This document shows positions 53,739 through 61,661 of a DNA stretch of 64,000 nt, one piece after another. The notes beneath the pieces were generated by a model. The model had not been told where the DNA came from and searched no databases. It saw nothing but the letters and a program-made list of their open reading frames with translations. The stretch is from Xylophilus sp. Leaf220 (GTDB lineage: Bacteria > Pseudomonadota > Gammaproteobacteria > Burkholderiales > Burkholderiaceae_C), in assembly GCF_001421705.1 (NCBI RefSeq), contig NZ_LMKO01000012.1:228277-292276 (forward strand). Direction: 5' to 3'. Numbering within the stretch: the first letter of the stretch is position 1; each line of letters begins with the position of its first letter. Both the position numbers and the translations under genes were made by a program.

Positions 53739-54365
53739 TTACGGCGTCAGCGCCTCGGCCCACGCGCCGGAAGCCCGGGCCCGCGCATAGTCCCGGACAT
53801 CTTCCGGCCAGGCGCTGGTCGACATGTCGAAACGCTTGCGATCGCCCACGAACAGGGCCCGCAGCGCATCCTCGTAACCGGGCAGGTTGCCTGCGATGGC
53901 GGACACGAAGCGGTAGGCCACCTCCTGGCCGGCACGCGCGCCGTCTTCCTGGGCGTAGCTCTGGCGCGCTTCCACCACCAACCGGCGGATCGCGACCGAG
54001 GCGCCCCCGGGCTGGCGCGACAGCCATTCCCAATGTTCGGGCAGCAAGGTCACCTCGCGGGCCACCACCCCGAGACGGGGACGGCCGCGCGGGCGGGGTG
54101 GCGGAGCGCAGACGGTCTCCTTCGACGACGAGTCTGCGGGCTCCGGTTGGGGTGCGAGATCTTCGACGCTGTCGAGATCGAGACAGCGGCCGGTACGGTC
54201 GTCGAAGACCATGAAGGGCCCCGCGACATGCTTCAACGCTTCGGCCACCGATGCACGGTTTCCGCTGGCTACCAGGAGGGTGCCGACGAAAGCTGTGCAG
54301 TGATCAATATGGTGCGGTGACGGGTCCGGGGCTGAAAAAGGAGCGGTGGGCGGAACAGCGGGCAT
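53739..54365 (-). CDS. DUF2239 family protein
   Basis: A 208-residue cytosolic protein matching DUF2239: TAFVGTLLVASGNRASVAEALK and FMVFDDRTGRCLDLD at the N-terminus, then the RPRGRPRLGVVAREVTLLPEHWEWLSRQPGGASVAIRRLVVEAR signature (residues about 92-135), and a C-terminal helical part. AT-hook-like RPRGRPR hints at nucleic-acid contact but this is speculative. The ATG at 54365 is chosen; an upstream TTG at 54392 would add nine residues. No function is known. Confidence 0.85.
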   Translation of the reverse strand: MPAVPPTAPFSAPDPSPHHIDHCTAFVGTLLVASGNRASVAEALKHVAGPFMVFDDRTGRCLDLDSVEDLAPQPEPADSSSKETVCAPPPRPRGRPRLGVVAREVTLLPEHWEWLSRQPGGASVAIRRLVVEARQSYAQEDGARAGQEVAYRFVSAIAGNLPGYEDALRALFVGDRKRFDMSTSAWPEDVRDYARARASGAWAEALTP

Positions 54366-54816
54366 CTCGGCGAACGTTAAGGTTATTTGCAAATATACGC
54401 ATCAGAAACAAATTCAGATGCATGCACACCGTTCACATCGCCCGGGGCATGGGCCACGGAGAAACTTCTGGACTGGAGGCAAGCACAGCATGCTGCTGGA
54501 AACATAGATTCGAAAGGGCCTTGCGGCAGTGGAATGGTGAATTCCCTCGGGTGTTGGCCTCGATGCCGAACGCAGGTCAGATAACGCCTGGAGCCGGACT
54601 TCGTTGACTTCTGCGGATCGGGCCCGATAAGGCCTGCCCGCCATGGTCGGCGCACTGTACGGCGTTTGCGCGGTTTGCGGCTGCCTATTACATCCTCCAA
54701 CACAGGGCGCGATTCTCCACCAACGCAAGCGGGAGAAACCTAGCGATTGAAACCGCTCGTCGGAATCTTGGATGCAACATGGTACTCAGCACTGTCTTTT
54801 GACATACCGACTGTCG
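54366..54816. other. 451-bp gene-free interval
   Basis: No credible gene. The part next to the DUF2239 gene is AT-rich for this genome and holds an imperfect 9-bp inverted repeat (GCATCAGAA at 54399-54407, TTCAGATGC at 54413-54421), a possible operator. No terminator was recognised for the Sel1 gene that ends at 54817. Confidence 0.5.
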
Positions 54817-56055
54817 TTATTTCCGAAAATTCGCCGGGAGATACTCGTAAAGCGGTGTCGGATCCCGCTGCAGCTGCGGCACGCTGGAAGGCGCGCCCAG
54901 CTGGGGCATGGCACCCGCCACGTCCACGTCCGCCAGTTGCCGCATCCAGGCGATGTCGATCTGCCCGTTGGCGGCCGGCCGCGAGTAGATCAGGCCCAGC
55001 ATGCGGCGGGCTTCCGGACTGCCTTCCGACGCCGCCAGCTGGTAGAGCCGTATCGCCTCCGCGAAATTGGCGGGTACGCCGGCGCCGCGGTGGTAGCGCC
55101 GGGCAGCGGCCAGCCAGCCCTCGGGGCCCTGGCGGCCCTGCGTGCGGACCGCTGCCGCTTCGCGGCGCGACATCCACTCGGCATTGGCCGCCGCCGCCTC
55201 CGACCGCGGTGCTGCGGCGCGGAACCGCGCCAGTGCTTCCGTGGTGCGCCCCGCCGCGACATCTTCGATGCCCAGCTCGATCGACGCGGCGACGCTTCCT
55301 GCCTGTGCAGCGCGGACCAGGGTCTCGCGGTGCGGCGTGCGGTCGGGCGGCGGCCCCTGGCCCGGGAGCGGCGACGCCGCGACCTGCACCGGCGCGACGC
55401 CGTTCTGCGCCAGCCATTCCAGGTACAGCGCCAGGGCCCGCTGGTCGCGGCCGAGCCGGGCGATCCAGGGCCGGGCCGCGGCCGGGTCGGCCGGGCCTTC
55501 GCAGCCGTCGATCGCGCACCAGGCCATGCCGGCCGGCGCCAGCGGATCGCCCAGGTCGACGGCGCGCTCGAACCAGCTGCGTGCCTGCGCCGGGTCGGTC
55601 GCCACGCCCTTGCCGTGCAGGTAGGCCAGGCCGAGCAGCCAGGACGCGCGTGCGGAAGCCTTCTCGGCGGCGCTGCCGCGGCGGGCCCGCTGGGTGGCGG
55701 ATGCCCGCAGCCGTGCCAGCTCGGCGACGTTGGCGGTCGAGGCCGGCTCCGCGATGCGCAGCGCCGCCGGGCCCACCGCGTCCGGCGGCCGGATCGGGTC
55801 GGGCGACAGCGGCGCGGTGGAGCGCAGCGGCGGCGGCGCCGTTGCCGAGCCGTTGCCGAGCGGCGCCAGGTCGACCCGGCCGGGTTGCATGCCGGCCGGG
55901 GCCGGCGCCGCGGTCAGCGCGTGGGCGGCCCCCAGGGCCCAGCATGCCATTGCCGCCAGACAGGCCGCGCCGAACCGGCGGCCCGGCGTCCGGCACTGGG
56001 CGGTCGCTGCCGCCCGGATCGGGGCGGCGAGGGATGTCGCGCCGTACGTTTGCAT
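54817..56055 (-). CDS. Exported Sel1/TPR-repeat protein of the curli-like cluster
   Basis: A 412-residue protein with an N-terminal secretion signal (CLAAMACWALGAAHALTA) and Sel1-like helical repeats: ASWLLGLAYLHGKGVATDPA followed by QARSWFERAVDLGDPLAPAG, then WLAAARRYHRGAGVPANFAE and AIRLYQLAASEGSPEARRMLGLIYSRPA near the C-terminus, with degenerate repeats between. Sel1 repeats are protein-interaction scaffolds. I prefer the ATG at 56055 with GGAAG eight bases upstream; an ATG at 56079 is possible. It lies 38 bp after the CsgG-like gene and probably serves the same assembly. Confidence 0.8.
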   Translation of the reverse strand: MQTYGATSLAAPIRAAATAQCRTPGRRFGAACLAAMACWALGAAHALTAAPAPAGMQPGRVDLAPLGNGSATAPPPLRSTAPLSPDPIRPPDAVGPAALRIAEPASTANVAELARLRASATQRARRGSAAEKASARASWLLGLAYLHGKGVATDPAQARSWFERAVDLGDPLAPAGMAWCAIDGCEGPADPAAARPWIARLGRDQRALALYLEWLAQNGVAPVQVAASPLPGQGPPPDRTPHRETLVRAAQAGSVAASIELGIEDVAAGRTTEALARFRAAAPRSEAAAANAEWMSRREAAAVRTQGRQGPEGWLAAARRYHRGAGVPANFAEAIRLYQLAASEGSPEARRMLGLIYSRPAANGQIDIAWMRQLADVDVAGAMPQLGAPSSVPQLQRDPTPLYEYLPANFRK

Positions 56056-56093
56056 CGCGGGCGCTTCCGTGGTGCGCATTAGGGTGCCGGCGT

Positions 56094-57848
56094 TCAGCGG
56101 GTCGCGGCGACGGGTGCGGCCGGCGGCGCAGCGGCGTCGGCGCGCCTGGCGCTCACCTGCCACTGCAGGCCGCCGCGGACCACGCCGTCGCTGCCCATGC
56201 TCTGGCCGAAGGCCCGTTCCACGTCGTCGAGCGACGCGAACCCGGGCATCGCCTTCAGCGCAGGCCCCTGCAGCTCGGCGGACAGCCGGCCCGCCGGGTT
56301 GCGGTCCATCGCGAAGCAGGCGACGGCCTCGGTGCCCGGCTTGCCGGCGTCCATGATGAAGGCGGTGTTGGGGCTCATCCAGTCGGGGATGCGGATCGCC
56401 AGGTTGGCCGGCACCATCGCGTTGGGGTTGGCGGCGTTGGGCATCAGCCGCATCACCGTGCCGCCGGAGTCGACGAAGTAGCAGTACAGGAACGAGGCCC
56501 GCGACACGGTGGCCGAGAGGAACACCTGCTCGCCCTCGGTGAAGGCCGGCCGTTCGCCGGCGGGTTGCGGATTCTCGATCTGCAGGTTGACGGTGGTGAC
56601 GGCCGGCGTGACCGGCGGCGTCGGGTCGCCGATATCGACGACCGGCGGTCCGTCCTCGTCCTTGTGGCCGGCGGGCATGGAGACCATTCCGCCGGCGTTC
56701 CAGCCGATCCGGTCGAGCGTGCCCTGGCTGGTCAGGCCGACGAAGTTGCGCAGCGCCCGCTCGTAGGTGGCGAAGTCGATCACGCCGGTGACGGCGATGC
56801 CCTTGTCGGCCTGGAACCGTGCGACGGCGGCGCGCAGCGGCGCGGCGTTGGCCGGCAGCGGCGCGGGCTGCACCGGCAGGTAGCCCTGGCGGGCGAAGGC
56901 GTTCTGCACCAGGGCCGACTGGCCCTGCGCGCCGCTCTCGTCGAACCACTCGCGCATCTGGCGCTGGAATCCGGGGTGGGTCTGGTCGAGCGTCAGGCAC
57001 TGCCAGTAGGGCACCCTGGCCCATTTGCCGATCAGCTCGATCGTCGCCAGGTCGACCAGGGTGCGGGTGGCGGCGCCAGCGCCCTGGGTGTAGTCGCGGC
57101 CCACGTTGAAGGTGACGCCGTAGCTGCCGATGCGGCCGGCCAGGTCCAGGCCCTGGCCCGCGCCGCCGATCACCACCTCGTTGGCCGAATCCAGCCCGGG
57201 GATCAGGGTGCGGGTGCGGAAGTCGCCCAGGTGCATCTCCAGGCCGATGATGGTGCCGTTGCGGCTCTGGCTCAGGCCGGTGTCGAGGCGCGAGCCCGAG
57301 GTGCCGACGTCGCTGCGGTTGCTGACGACGTTCTGCTCCACGTACGAGATGGCGCCCGAGATGTAGAGCGCCGGGCGCTGCAGCTGCATCTGGTTGTTGT
57401 TGAGCAGGATGGTGGTCAGGTTCTGCACCGTGTCCTGCCGGGCGATGTCGACTTCGTAGTCCACCACCCGGAACGCATTGCTCAGGCGCGACATCTGCGA
57501 GAGCGCGGTGATCACCATGTCCTTGGTCGCCACCGGCACCCGGCTGGAGAAATCGGGGATCTGCTTGCTGGCGATCAGGGTGGTCGGCAGTTGGGCCTCG
57601 CGGAGCATGTAGTCCATGCACAGCAGCGAGTCCGAGAAGCTGGAGAGCGCCCGGTTGGGCCGCACCACCGGCCGGTCGTAGGTGGGCGCGTAGCTCTGGA
57701 AGGCGGCGTCCTTGCGCGCGTCGAGCGGCGTCGCGCAGCCTGCCAGGAACAGCGCCGCCGCCAGGGCGGTCGGCACGCCCAGCCGCAGGCCGGCGGGTGC
57801 CGCGGCGCGGGAGGCTGCGGACGGGTGCTGGGCGGGGTGGGGGCGCAT
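56094..57848 (-). CDS. CsgG-like outer-membrane lipoprotein with peptidoglycan-binding and DUF4384-like domains
   Basis: A 584-residue lipoprotein (lipobox LAGC, Cys38). Residues 69-285 resemble the CsgG/HfaB secretion-channel family: SSFSDSLLCMDYML, VATKDMVITALSQMSRLSNAFRVVDYE, ALYISGAISYVEQNVVSN, an amphipathic TIIGLEMHLGDFRTRTLIPG and TRTLVDLATIELIGKWARVPYWQCL. Residues 310-366 look like a peptidoglycan-binding type 1 fold (VQNAFARQGYLPV, AVARFQADKGIAVTGVIDFATYERAL). Residues 438-515 match DUF4384 (LYCYFVDSGGTVMRLMPN). CsgG proper is about 277 residues and lacks both extra domains. It should export the neighbouring repeat protein. Domain calls are by eye. Confidence 0.8.
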   Translation of the reverse strand: MRPHPAQHPSAASRAAAPAGLRLGVPTALAAALFLAGCATPLDARKDAAFQSYAPTYDRPVVRPNRALSSFSDSLLCMDYMLREAQLPTTLIASKQIPDFSSRVPVATKDMVITALSQMSRLSNAFRVVDYEVDIARQDTVQNLTTILLNNNQMQLQRPALYISGAISYVEQNVVSNRSDVGTSGSRLDTGLSQSRNGTIIGLEMHLGDFRTRTLIPGLDSANEVVIGGAGQGLDLAGRIGSYGVTFNVGRDYTQGAGAATRTLVDLATIELIGKWARVPYWQCLTLDQTHPGFQRQMREWFDESGAQGQSALVQNAFARQGYLPVQPAPLPANAAPLRAAVARFQADKGIAVTGVIDFATYERALRNFVGLTSQGTLDRIGWNAGGMVSMPAGHKDEDGPPVVDIGDPTPPVTPAVTTVNLQIENPQPAGERPAFTEGEQVFLSATVSRASFLYCYFVDSGGTVMRLMPNAANPNAMVPANLAIRIPDWMSPNTAFIMDAGKPGTEAVACFAMDRNPAGRLSAELQGPALKAMPGFASLDDVERAFGQSMGSDGVVRGGLQWQVSARRADAAAPPAAPVAATR

Positions 57849-57949
57849 GGTGGGATCCTGGTGCGGTTCGTGGGAGAAGGCGAGGGCGCACGGCCGCGGG
57901 CCCCGCAGGCGGCAGGCCCCGGGGCACGGAGTCGCCGTCGGCGACGGCG

Positions 57950-58375
57950 TCAGTTGCAGATGTTCACCAGGTCGCCCCGCAGCACCACCACCTGCTGCGT
58001 GGTCTTGCCGTTGGCACCCACCGTGGTGGTCGTCGTCGGCAGGGCGCCGATGGTCTGGGTGCAGGTGGTCTTGAAGCCGTCGGCCGTGGCGGTGTTGATC
58101 ACGTCCTTGTCGGTCAGGATGCCGGTGGTGTCGCCCGAGAAGGCCTTGGCCTCGTAGCGGGCCACCTTGGCCTTCTGCCAGGCGGGCATGTCGCTCGACG
58201 GGCTCATGTAGCCCGAGCGTGCGGCGGCGGCGGTCGGCAGGCCCTGGACGAAGACCTTGCGCTCGAGCACGACCGGGTCTTCGCCCGGCGCTATCTGGAC
58301 GGATTGCGCAATTGCCGGGCCTGCGCAGCAGGCCGCGAGGAGCGCGGCTGCCGAAAGACGGAACGTCGGGTGCAT
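57950..58375 (-). CDS. Small exported protein of the curli-like cluster
   Basis: A 141-residue protein with a clear signal peptide (AALLAACCAGPAIA-QS). The mature part contains QIAPGEDPVVLERKVFVQGL, YMSPSSDMPAWQKAKVARYEAKAF, GILTDKDVINTATADGF and two cysteines (TTCTQ and NICN at the C-terminus) that could form a disulfide. GGAGG precedes the ATG. I do not recognise the family. By position between the repeat protein and the channel it could play the part of CsgE/CsgF or HfaA, a chaperone or nucleator; that is inference. Confidence 0.75.
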   Translation of the reverse strand: MHPTFRLSAAALLAACCAGPAIAQSVQIAPGEDPVVLERKVFVQGLPTAAAARSGYMSPSSDMPAWQKAKVARYEAKAFSGDTTGILTDKDVINTATADGFKTTCTQTIGALPTTTTTVGANGKTTQQVVVLRGDLVNICN

Positions 58376-58463
58376 GGTGGCCTCCGGATCAAGGGGTGCA
58401 GGCAGGCGCCGGGCCGTGGCCGGCGCGCTGCGCTGCAATCAGGCGAATCGCAGCGAGGTCGGA

Positions 58464-59177
58464 TCAATGGCAGGTCGGGCAAGGATCGCGCGGCTCGTCG
58501 CAGGCATCGTTGGAGGCGATGTTCTGGATGGCGTGGCTGCGTGCGCCGTTGGCTGCGTTGCTGATCGACGCGTTCTGCAGCGCGGTGGTCTGCTCGGAGT
58601 AGCCGGCGATCAGCACCCTGCCGAAGTTGGACGACAGGTTCTGCGTCGCCATGGCACCGTTGCCGCTGGCCAGGTTGGTCACGGTCGACGATGCCGACCA
58701 GACGTTTTGCTTCGAGGTGCCCTTGATCTCGATGCCGTCGCCGTTGTTGCTGGCCAGGTTCTGCAGCGCGGTCGCATCGCCGCCCTGCGCCTTGTTGGTC
58801 ACGTTCGTATCGCGCAGGCCGGTGGTCTGCTCGGAGTACGCGCCCTGGAACACGGTCACGCGGCCGGCATTGCTCGAGACGTTCTGGTTGGCGAAGTCGC
58901 CGCGGCCGGCCGACTCGTTCTGCAGGGATCCGCTGCTGGCGGTGGTGACGTTCTGCCTGGAATTGCCCTTGATCTCGATCGTGCCGGCGTTGCTGGCCAG
59001 GTTCTGCATCGCCGTGTTGTTGGCGTTCGACTTGTTGGTCACATTGACGTTGGTCAGGCTCGCGGTCTGGAGCGAGGTGGCGCCCGCGGCGATGGTGATC
59101 GAGCCGGGCGAGGTCGGCTGAACGGCCATGGCGGCGGTGGCGATCGAGCAGAGAGCGAATACGGCGAGGTTCTTCAT
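58464..59177 (-). CDS. Secreted Q/N-rich repeat protein, candidate functional amyloid subunit
   Basis: A 237-residue exported protein: signal peptide 1-18 (TAAMA-VQ), then five ~40-residue repeats (27-65, 66-105, 106-146, 147-186, 187-223). Each has an SxQ motif (35, 73, 115, 155, 194) and closes with QN[LVI][AS]SN (58, 98, 139, 179, 218). Odd repeats (3 and 5) share YSEQTT, even ones (2 and 4) IEIKG-N/T-S. Regularly spaced Ser, Gln and Asn with short beta-strands are what CsgA/CsgB curli repeats show, although the motif spacing differs. The C-terminus has three Cys and a terminal His (CDEPRDPCPTCH). AAGGAATC precedes the ATG at 59177. It is probably the substrate of the CsgG-like channel. 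Confidence 0.8.
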   Translation of the reverse strand: MKNLAVFALCSIATAAMAVQPTSPGSITIAAGATSLQTASLTNVNVTNKSNANNTAMQNLASNAGTIEIKGNSRQNVTTASSGSLQNESAGRGDFANQNVSSNAGRVTVFQGAYSEQTTGLRDTNVTNKAQGGDATALQNLASNNGDGIEIKGTSKQNVWSASSTVTNLASGNGAMATQNLSSNFGRVLIAGYSEQTTALQNASISNAANGARSHAIQNIASNDACDEPRDPCPTCH

Positions 59178-59550
59178 GACGATTCCTTCAGACGGTGGTG
59201 GCTGCCGGCGGACGGCCCGGAGGCAGGGGCTCGGTGGGAACCGCCCCCTTCGGGAAGCCGTTCTTTCCTTGCCTGGATGCAGTGTCTGCAGTGGAGGCCG
59301 CAGCGCCAATCGCCTGTAGGAGGTAGCCGGTTGCAGGCCGGTATCGTTACCCCGACCTACCCATCCGGCATCGCCATGCCACGATTCCATTGCCTAAGAA
59401 ATTAACCCGGATCAAATAAACCCATTGCTATTTCTGGTCAGTAAGCAGTTGCAACTTTCGAAACATTGATTGTTTACAAGCGGACACCCTGTACACATTT
59501 ACTTGCCGCTGTCCGCTAATACACCCCGACACAACGAAGAGGGGCGCACC
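59178..59550. promoter_or_regulatory. Divergent control region between the repeat protein and the response regulator
   Basis: 373 bp, with an AT-rich core at about 59395-59530 that contrasts with the surrounding GC. AGCGGACA at 59479-59486 and TGTCCGCT at 59510-59517 are perfect 8-bp inverted arms 23 bp apart, close to the response-regulator ATG. Likely promoters for both directions lie here; I could not fix the hexamers. Confidence 0.5.
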
Positions 59551-60360
59551 ATGCAACTGCCATCGATCGACGACCACCGCGCGGCCTCGCTCCGCGACGG
59601 ATCGAGCGCCACCCACCGCCACATGCGCGACAGCGAAGGACTGCCGTTCCGGCTGCCGGCAGCCGCCGTGCCGACATGGCCCGAGTTCTTTCGCGGGCAG
59701 GAGGCCAACCCGATCCGGGTGCTGCTGGTGGACGACGACGCCCACATCCGCAACACCGTGGTGCGCGACCTGATGGCCGACCTTCGGATCCAGGTGGTCG
59801 GCCAGGCGGGCAGCTTCCGCGAGGGCCGGCGGCTGGTCGGCATGCAGGCGTTCGACGTGCTGCTGGTCGACCTGAACCTCGGCGACGGCTCGGGCCTGGA
59901 GCTGATCGAGCATGCCAAGGCGCTGCGCCCCGGCATCGAGGCGATCGTCATCTCGAGCATGGAGGACGAGCAGCGGGTGCTGCAGGCGTTCGAGCTGGGC
60001 GCCACAGGCTTCCTGGTGAAGAGTTCGTGGTTCGGCAGCTTCGCCCAGGCGGTGCTGCAGGTGGTCAACGGCGGCGCCTCGATCACGCCGCAGCTGGCGC
60101 GCCGATTGCTGATGCGCTTCGAGAAATCGAACGGCGGCGCGCGCAGCGCGCCCGCGCCGGCCGAGCGCGAAAAGCTCTCCGATCGCGAACGCGAGGTGCT
60201 GAAGCTGGTGGCCTCCGGCCACACCAGCGCCGAGGTGGGTGGCCGGCTGCAGATCAGCGCGCAGACGGTCAATTCCCATGTGAAGAACATCTACCGCAAG
60301 CTGCGGGTCAAGACCCGGGCCCAGGCCGTGAGCTATGCCGGAGCGCGCGGATTGTTGTAA
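59551..60360 (+). CDS. NarL/LuxR-family response regulator
   Basis: A 269-residue regulator. After an unusual 50-residue N-terminal extension comes a receiver domain (VLLVDDDAHIRN; phospho-acceptor Asp107 in LLVDLNLGDG; Lys157 in GFLVKSS) and a C-terminal LuxR HTH (LSDREREVLKLVASGHTSAE, then ISAQTVNSHVKNIYRKLRVK). GAAGAGGGG precedes the ATG. It is followed 29 bp later by its probable kinase and is divergent from the curli-like cluster, as csgD is from csgBA, so that cluster is its likely target. Confidence 0.92.
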   Translation: MQLPSIDDHRAASLRDGSSATHRHMRDSEGLPFRLPAAAVPTWPEFFRGQEANPIRVLLVDDDAHIRNTVVRDLMADLRIQVVGQAGSFREGRRLVGMQAFDVLLVDLNLGDGSGLELIEHAKALRPGIEAIVISSMEDEQRVLQAFELGATGFLVKSSWFGSFAQAVLQVVNGGASITPQLARRLLMRFEKSNGGARSAPAPAEREKLSDREREVLKLVASGHTSAEVGGRLQISAQTVNSHVKNIYRKLRVKTRAQAVSYAGARGLL

Positions 60361-60389
60361 CCGACCGGGGTGGCGGTGGATGTCCGAAT

Positions 60390-61661
60390 GTGTTGTCGAG
60401 CGGCCTGAACGTGGGTAACTCCCCCCTGCTGATCGTCGCGCTGGTGATACCCCTGTGCATGGCGATGGCGATGCTGCTCGCCGGTCGCCGGCGGCGCAGT
60501 CCGCGCGACCGGGCTTTCGCCGGGCTCTGCCTGGCCTGGACGCTCGACCTGGCGGCCGATCTGTGGCCCTGGGAGACGGCGGGCCTTTTCACCCCGCGCA
60601 ACCTGAACGCGGTCAGCTGCTGCGCGGCGGTGCTGGCGCTGACCTGCTTCGGCATCATGGCCGGCCCGGTCGCGCCGGGGCCGCGCTGGACCACGGTTGG
60701 TTGGGTCGCAGCGGCCACAGCGGTGCTGGCCACCGCCGTATGGCTCGTCCATGCGACGACCGCGGCGGGTGCCGCATGGCTGGCGGCGCTGACCACGGCA
60801 GCGCTGCTGCCGCCGTTGCGATGCGCGCAGGTGCTGCGACACCATCCTCCGCGAAAGCCCTGGGGCTGGGCCGCGACCTGCGTCGTCGGCGCGGCCCTGC
60901 TGCTGCATGCCGCATGGCTTCCCTACCGGCAGGCGCTCGACATCGTGCTGCTCGACACCGCCTACCTGGGCCTGGTGCTCTGCGCCTGGATGCTGAGCGG
61001 GCCTGTGCTGCCCGAGCCGCAAGGCCCTCCGCAGGGCGAAGGCGACACGCTTTCCGATGCGGCCCAGGCCCGGCTGCAGCGCGCCGTGGCCCACGAACGG
61101 CAACGCATCGCGCAGGAACTGCACGACAGCATCGGCTCCCACCTGACCGGCCTGATCGCCCGGCAGGACCGCACGTTGCCGGGCCAGCAGGCGATGGCCG
61201 CAGCGCTGGAGGAGTGCCTTCTCGAGCTGCGAATCGTCGTCGACAGCTTCCACGACGACGGCGAATCGCTGGTGCTGTCGCTGGCCCGCCTGCGCTACCG
61301 GATCCAGCCATCGCTGGACCGGCTGGGCATCGCCATGCAGTGGAACGTGGAGGATGCCGATGCCTGGGGCACCCTGCCCGCGGAGCATGCCAAGGAACTG
61401 CTGCGGATCGCGCAGGAATCGCTCACCAACGTGATGCGCCATTCGGGCGCCACCCATGTCGCGGTCACGCTCTGCCGCCGGACCGCCGAGTCGGTGATGG
61501 TGCTGGAGGTGCGCGACGACGGCAGCGGCGGGGACCGCGCGACCGGTGCCGGCAAGGGGCTTGCCGGCATGCGGCGGCGGGCGCAGCAGATCGGTGCCCG
61601 GTTCGAGGTATTCGCCGAGCCCGGTTTCGGCACCCGGGTGTGGGTGGGGTATCCGCTGTGA
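60390..61661 (+). CDS. Membrane sensor histidine kinase (HisKA_3/NarX-UhpB type)
   Basis: A 423-residue kinase. The N-terminal half has about six hydrophobic helices with short loops, so sensing is probably within or near the membrane. Then a dimerisation/phosphorylation domain HERQRIAQELHDSIGSHLTG (His245) and an ATPase domain: AQESLTNVMRHSGATHVAVTL (N box), RDDGSGG (G1) and GKGLAGMRRRAQQIG (G2). No ATG suits; GTG at 60390 (with GGTGGA upstream) is proposed and GTG at 60411 is the alternative. The 55-bp element begins four bases after its stop. Confidence 0.88.
   Translation: MLSSGLNVGNSPLLIVALVIPLCMAMAMLLAGRRRRSPRDRAFAGLCLAWTLDLAADLWPWETAGLFTPRNLNAVSCCAAVLALTCFGIMAGPVAPGPRWTTVGWVAAATAVLATAVWLVHATTAAGAAWLAALTTAALLPPLRCAQVLRHHPPRKPWGWAATCVVGAALLLHAAWLPYRQALDIVLLDTAYLGLVLCAWMLSGPVLPEPQGPPQGEGDTLSDAAQARLQRAVAHERQRIAQELHDSIGSHLTGLIARQDRTLPGQQAMAAALEECLLELRIVVDSFHDDGESLVLSLARLRYRIQPSLDRLGIAMQWNVEDADAWGTLPAEHAKELLRIAQESLTNVMRHSGATHVAVTLCRRTAESVMVLEVRDDGSGGDRATGAGKGLAGMRRRAQQIGARFEVFAEPGFGTRVWVGYPL

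Follow-up and report, generated by a model that had tools for sequence, protein, structure and literature searches.

We describe here a six-gene locus of Xylophilus sp. Leaf220 that rather probably encodes a CsgG-fold secretion and assembly system, neither curli nor holdfast anchor. From its sequence and predicted structures we infer that it would export a beta-repeat protein, REP, under two-component control, and may build a surface fibre. Curli and, by analogy, the holdfast anchor are the known cases of CsgG-type secretion. The locus is a CsgG-like gene set kept across the Comamonadaceae, whose members are mostly environmental, and is apparently undescribed; a search of largely subscription-free literature returned no paper linking CsgG with DUF4384 or describing the locus in Comamonadaceae. 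The stretch of DNA that was analysed, hereafter the window, is 64,000 nucleotides long and holds the following features:

54817-56079, minus strand: SEL1, 420 aa, exported Sel1-repeat protein and operon gene 4 (Pfam Sel1 at 7e-13; secretion signal by inspection; 3' of the channel gene in 82 of 83 loci).
56094-57848, minus strand: CSGG, 584 aa, lipoprotein and predicted channel with lipobox Cys38; predicted CsgG fold at about 68-288, PG_binding_1 at 313-363, DUF4384 at 436-513.
57950-58375, minus strand: SMALL, 141 aa, exported, with two invariant cysteines and without known family.
58464-59177, minus strand: REP, 237 aa, exported, rich in Q, N, S, T and A, with five repeats of about 40 aa and a C-terminal Cys tail; likely the cargo.
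59178-59550, no strand: shared divergent control region with an AT-rich core at 59391-59540; divergent response regulator in 63 of 74 loci.
59434-59453, plus strand: weak copy of a 20-bp element with the family consensus ctnGGTAGTtaCnAaaTGTA; candidate response regulator or promoter site.
59551-60360, plus strand: RR, 269 aa, NarL/LuxR-type response regulator (Pfam receiver and GerE).
About 60390-61661, plus strand: HK, membrane sensor histidine kinase (Pfam HisKA_3 and HATPase_c), start uncertain.

All six genes were confirmed at the expected positions, four on the minus strand and the divergent RR and HK genes on the plus strand. An earlier note on this DNA had proposed four genes for exported proteins facing a LuxR-type regulator and a kinase across an AT-rich region, and gene calls, Pfam and GC content bear this out. 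Export-type N-termini are visible by inspection on all four minus-strand products. Pfam also matched Sel1, DUF4384, PG_binding_1, receiver with GerE, and HisKA_3 with HATPase; for the kinase the gene itself stands and its start position is uncertain. Between the module and a set of acyl-CoA-type genes lies a small minus-strand gene (53739-54392), which we take to resemble one for a DUF2239 protein.

The gene set behaves as a unit far beyond this genome. A protein search over 149 related genomes recovered a close channel homologue in 12, the window's own included, with 41-63% identity in the alignment, and the genomic contexts of these 12 loci differ. We also scanned the GTDB species collection with the channel alignment only; of 102 matching stretches the best 80 were retained. 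Their titles point mainly to Comamonadaceae, apart from a few metagenome genomes that carry other labels. The module occurs in Acidovorax, Comamonas, Delftia, Polaromonas, Hydrogenophaga and other genera, several of which include readily cultured strains. Partners were counted around 88 distinct channel genes (deduplicated, with the best 80 of the 102 GTDB stretches included), using only contigs that reach far enough. REP accompanies the channel in 82 of 82 loci, SMALL in 85 of 85 and SEL1 in 82 of 83. A divergent regulator is present in 63 of 74 loci and a kinase in 54 of 74, where an apparent absence may reflect a missed gene, given that genes in other genomes were called with a home-made caller and profiles. 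Since the GTDB scan used the channel protein alone, the co-occurrence of the partners is independent evidence. The order REP-SMALL-CSGG-SEL1 and the orientation are kept in dozens of genera, and the pairwise divergence of each partner correlates with that of the channel (r = 0.72 for REP, 0.82 for SMALL, 0.78 for SEL1, 0.59 for RR and 0.64 for HK; maxima in shuffled controls 0.14-0.22). Consequently, the six-gene organisation is far beyond chance and the module is real. The association of repeat protein and channel gene in related genomes, on which the earlier proposal hinged, is complete in this set.

The predicted channel is a lipoprotein with three recognisable parts. Among 48 CSGG homologues the lipobox cysteine (C38) is invariant, and Pfam finds DUF4384 in all 48 and PG_binding_1 in 47. 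The Pfam CsgG family (PF03783) matched neither the 584-aa protein nor its family, and a PDB sequence-profile search with the channel gave no match. The HfaB model NF037935 reached 17.4 bits (E 0.0019) over residues 35-274, far below its cut-off of 300, which by profile makes CSGG a distant relation of HfaB and not a member of that family. In hhalign comparisons, for which single-template E-values are not meaningful, the close-family channel alignment scored 95.9% with HfaB and 4.6% with CsgG, and a wider alignment 99.1% and 95.1%, respectively. An AlphaFold2 model built from 48 aligned sequences (mean pLDDT 72) revealed a CsgG-like domain at residues 32-252. This domain matched CsgG chains in Foldseek (6l7a, 9.8e-9) and by VIA (Z 16.1 over 185 residues, rmsd 4.2), the match spanning residues 17-256 of the CsgG protomer. 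Long strands at 125-148, 153-173 and 178-200 occupy the positions of the CsgG membrane hairpins. The stretch 195-219 has a pLDDT below 50 and the membrane-strand part is of moderate confidence only, so that a transmembrane barrel is probable without being firmly predicted. The predicted fold, together with the profile relation to HfaB, argues for kinship with CsgG: in the model the fold is that of CsgG, and at the sequence level HfaB comes closest among the named relatives. The CsgG-like lipoprotein of the earlier note is therefore upheld in its fold, which the note had made decisive for 56094-57848, and in its lipobox cysteine, but not in a PF03783 match; of the two families it had suggested searching, DUF4384 was found and CsgG was not.

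The repeat protein and the small two-cysteine protein named in the earlier note were both recovered as described. REP consists of five units of 39-44 aa, each ending in [AS]SN, followed by a short Cys-containing tail. Its 63 homologues carry a 38-aa unit in 3-7 copies each, 233 units in total, with the consensus G.V.I.G.S.Q........S.V.N.A.G..S.A.QN(L/I)(A/S)SN, in which the near-invariant positions G, Q, N, A, Q, N and N are conserved at 94-100%. The predicted structure is all-beta (pLDDT 80.6, pTM 0.84), each unit contributing about four short strands, and found no usable match in the PDB. No Pfam family matched any of the 63 members, and no REP was found in the plasmid collection. Some Polaromonas loci hold two tandem REP genes (L042:5774-6950, identical to L120; L117), which could encode major and minor subunits. 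The mature part of SMALL contains two cysteines that do not vary among 50 homologues, none of which matched a Pfam family. SMALL carries the C-terminal motif QVVVLRGDLVNIC, and the family ends in C.Q.(V/I)GS...Q(V/I)VVLRGDLVNIC.

The control region is set apart by composition. Its core has 43% GC compared to 69% for the window and is the lowest-GC 150-bp stretch in it. An EM motif search on 60 dereplicated intergenic regions yielded the 20-bp element, which most loci possess, with a log-likelihood of 276 against 83-100 in shuffled sets, a comparison that somewhat overstates its significance because the regions share descent. More telling are the fixed distance and orientation: 44 of the 45 sites above 12 bits lie in one orientation, mostly 250-320 bp upstream of REP (middle half of sites 290-314 bp). 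The copy in the window is weak and reaches only 12 bits. The element may be an RR site or a promoter. A search of the control region against Rfam gave no match. The window RR scores 241-310 bits against the module RRs of other genera and 80 bits against the next RR of its own genome, which on sequence grounds marks it as specific to the module.

How might these parts work together? CSGG would be lipidated at Cys38 and form an oligomeric CsgG/HfaB-like pore in the outer membrane, while its PG_binding_1 and DUF4384 domains could link the pore to the cell wall, take up periplasmic cargo, or both. REP, as the main cargo, would leave the cytoplasm by Sec export and pass through the CSGG pore. Outside the cell it would fold into a Q/N-laddered beta-repeat rod that either stays surface-bound or polymerises. 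SMALL, probably disulphide-bonded, might serve as nucleator, plug or adaptor, a role like that of CsgF or HfaA without their sequence, and SEL1 might be a scaffold or chaperone in the periplasm. HK and RR would regulate the operon via the divergent promoter region, possibly through binding of RR to the 20-bp element. Several lines of evidence point to export: the predicted CsgG fold and the invariant lipobox cysteine, the obligate partners whose divergence tracks that of the channel, the invariant Q/N positions and confident all-beta model of REP, the module-specific RR with a conserved upstream element, and the two-Cys SMALL and short exported repeat proteins kept in most of the distant loci examined. 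The surface role of HfaB points the same way, since in Caulobacter HfaB is needed to place HfaA and HfaD on the surface (PMC6707917). Speaking against export are the missing PF03783 match, the moderate confidence of the membrane strands, the weak control element of the window, the lack of a curlin or PDB fold match for REP, and the likeness of the channel domain to PelC and FlgT, which do not export proteins.

The same machine could serve another use. A CsgG-fold ring with REP and SMALL might fasten exopolysaccharide, or a capsule, to the wall of the cell in the manner of HfaABD, forming an anchor and not a fibre. We regard this as possible though on balance unlikely. It would fit the closer profile relation of the channel to HfaB than to CsgG, seen with both alignments, the fusion to a cell-wall-binding domain, the small number of units in REP (just 3-7) and the alphaproteobacterial HfaB-family loci, which contain repeat and small proteins, in some cases LuxR-type regulators and in one a Sel1 protein. 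However, no conserved polysaccharide genes lie beside the module, and the equation of SMALL with HfaA and of REP with HfaD fails at hhalign probabilities of 0.2-0.3%. The comparison with HfaB drawn in the earlier note thus holds for the channel but does not extend to its partners.

Two further readings concern the channel itself and the whole gene set. CSGG might be a periplasmic scaffold ring without a pore, similar to PelC (Z 11.1) or FlgT (Z 10.7), while REP would help to maintain the envelope as a structural protein, either in the periplasm or bound to the outer membrane; cell-wall-binding and Sel1 components and a stress-type NarL two-component control would suit such a role. The matches to CsgG are well higher and span its protomer from 17 to 256, and the model places long beta strands at 125-200, the site of the CsgG membrane hairpins, which makes this reading improbable. 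We give least credence to a diverged true curli system, in which CSGG would be CsgG, REP would be CsgA or CsgB, SMALL would be CsgF or CsgE and RR would be CsgD. The divergent layout, the CsgG fold and the Q/N repeats would be expected of it, but the curlin repeat (PF07012) is silent in all 63 REP members and in the whole genome while an E. coli control was positive, and the profile of the 38-aa unit reaches only E 9.6 against CsgA. CsgE and CsgF (PF10627, PF10614) are likewise absent from the whole genome and matched none of 50 SMALL members, and the channel profile lies nearer to HfaB. The statement of the earlier note that the locus is not simply curli is borne out by these searches. We prefer the reading of a separate CsgG-fold secretion and assembly system.

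Relatives of the channel, close or distant, occur in about 5% of sampled genomes (19 of 399 in the order, 19 of 398 in the phylum). In most distant DUF4384/CsgG-like loci examined, a two-Cys small exported protein and at least one short exported repeat protein adjoin the channel gene. SMALL aligned with these two-Cys proteins at 96% in hhalign. For the repeat proteins an hhalign value of 90% was discounted because repeats inflate the score; the REP unit gave two clear matches (L043, 6.7e-10; L174, 1.2e-6), and because shuffled controls reach 1.6e-4 we claim homology for these two only and see in the others a resemblance. With its fused lipoprotein next to a two-Cys SMALL and a repeat protein that is exported, the window locus belongs to this unnamed DUF4384/CsgG-like class. 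Two of the operons (L045:7701-15961, L046:182-8813) have T6SS-type TagF/TssM and sigma/anti-sigma genes as neighbours, judged by sequence, and a caspase-type protein lies beside L045. The Xylophilus genome contains a second, distant CsgG/HfaB-like locus (C27, about 62500-71100; L050:3516-12107) with genes for a 122-aa exported protein, a 1214-aa exported repeat protein, a 151-aa protein, a Sel1-like protein, OmpA and a CsgG-like 399-aa lipoprotein without DUF4384; operons of similar make-up recur elsewhere in the genus and family (L051-L055, L057). The only PF03783 protein found in the genome (C8, L058:9422-10495), a lipoprotein of 357 aa whose C-terminal part resembles a peptidoglycan-binding stretch, lies outside any operon of the module type.

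Tentatively, and with somewhat less confidence than for the window locus, we suggest that Beta- and Gammaproteobacteria contain a widespread but unrecognised class of secretion systems with a CsgG fold. It would combine a DUF4384-bearing, usually also cell-wall-binding channel with an obligate two-Cys partner, short Q/N- or G/N-rich beta-repeat proteins as new surface fibre or anchor, and lineage-specific regulators. In the module, kept across the Comamonadaceae, the predicted CsgG pore fold is fused to a cell-wall-binding part, and its cargo and accessory proteins come from unrelated families. Should REP be exported and assemble, it would provide surface fibres with a new kind of repeat scaffold, and the locus would supply CsgG-like pores from a new source. 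How such pores work could be approached through the two-Cys partner, which accompanies all close homologues (85/85) and most of the distant ones.

Compared with curli, the window locus shares the CsgG fold, a divergent operon with a LuxR-type regulator and a Q/N-rich repeat protein. It differs in having no curlin repeat, CsgE or CsgF, a channel protein twice as long with extra domains, and a true receiver plus kinase. In a survey of curli systems Betaproteobacteria accounted for only two, and CsgG was placed within a larger family with paralogues (PMC3521004); the window locus fits among unassigned relatives of this kind. The Pseudomonas Fap amyloid system also exports a repeat protein over the outer membrane. 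Its FapF is a beta-barrel porin and does not have the CsgG fold; no Fap family appeared among the Pfam or NCBIfam results. Distant loci of Beta- and Gammaproteobacteria (L044-L049, L167-L186) share the CsgG-like and DUF4384 protein and mostly a two-Cys SMALL relative and repeat proteins, but have an extra OmpA, other small Cys proteins and no conserved NarL pair, and some have ECF sigma, caspase or T6SS-type neighbours. Alphaproteobacterial HfaB-family loci (L225:1988-8018, L226, L227) contain a repeat protein, a small protein and LuxR-type regulators, the first of them also a Sel1 protein, and so parallel the layout of the window locus. From HfaABD the window locus is set apart by the fusion of PG_binding_1 and DUF4384 to the channel, by its two-component pair, by a channel score of 17 against the 300-bit HfaB cut-off, and by SMALL and REP, which show no profile relation to HfaA and HfaD. 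Common to both are a CsgG-fold lipoprotein, related by profile, and, as its partners, a repeat protein together with small proteins that are exported.
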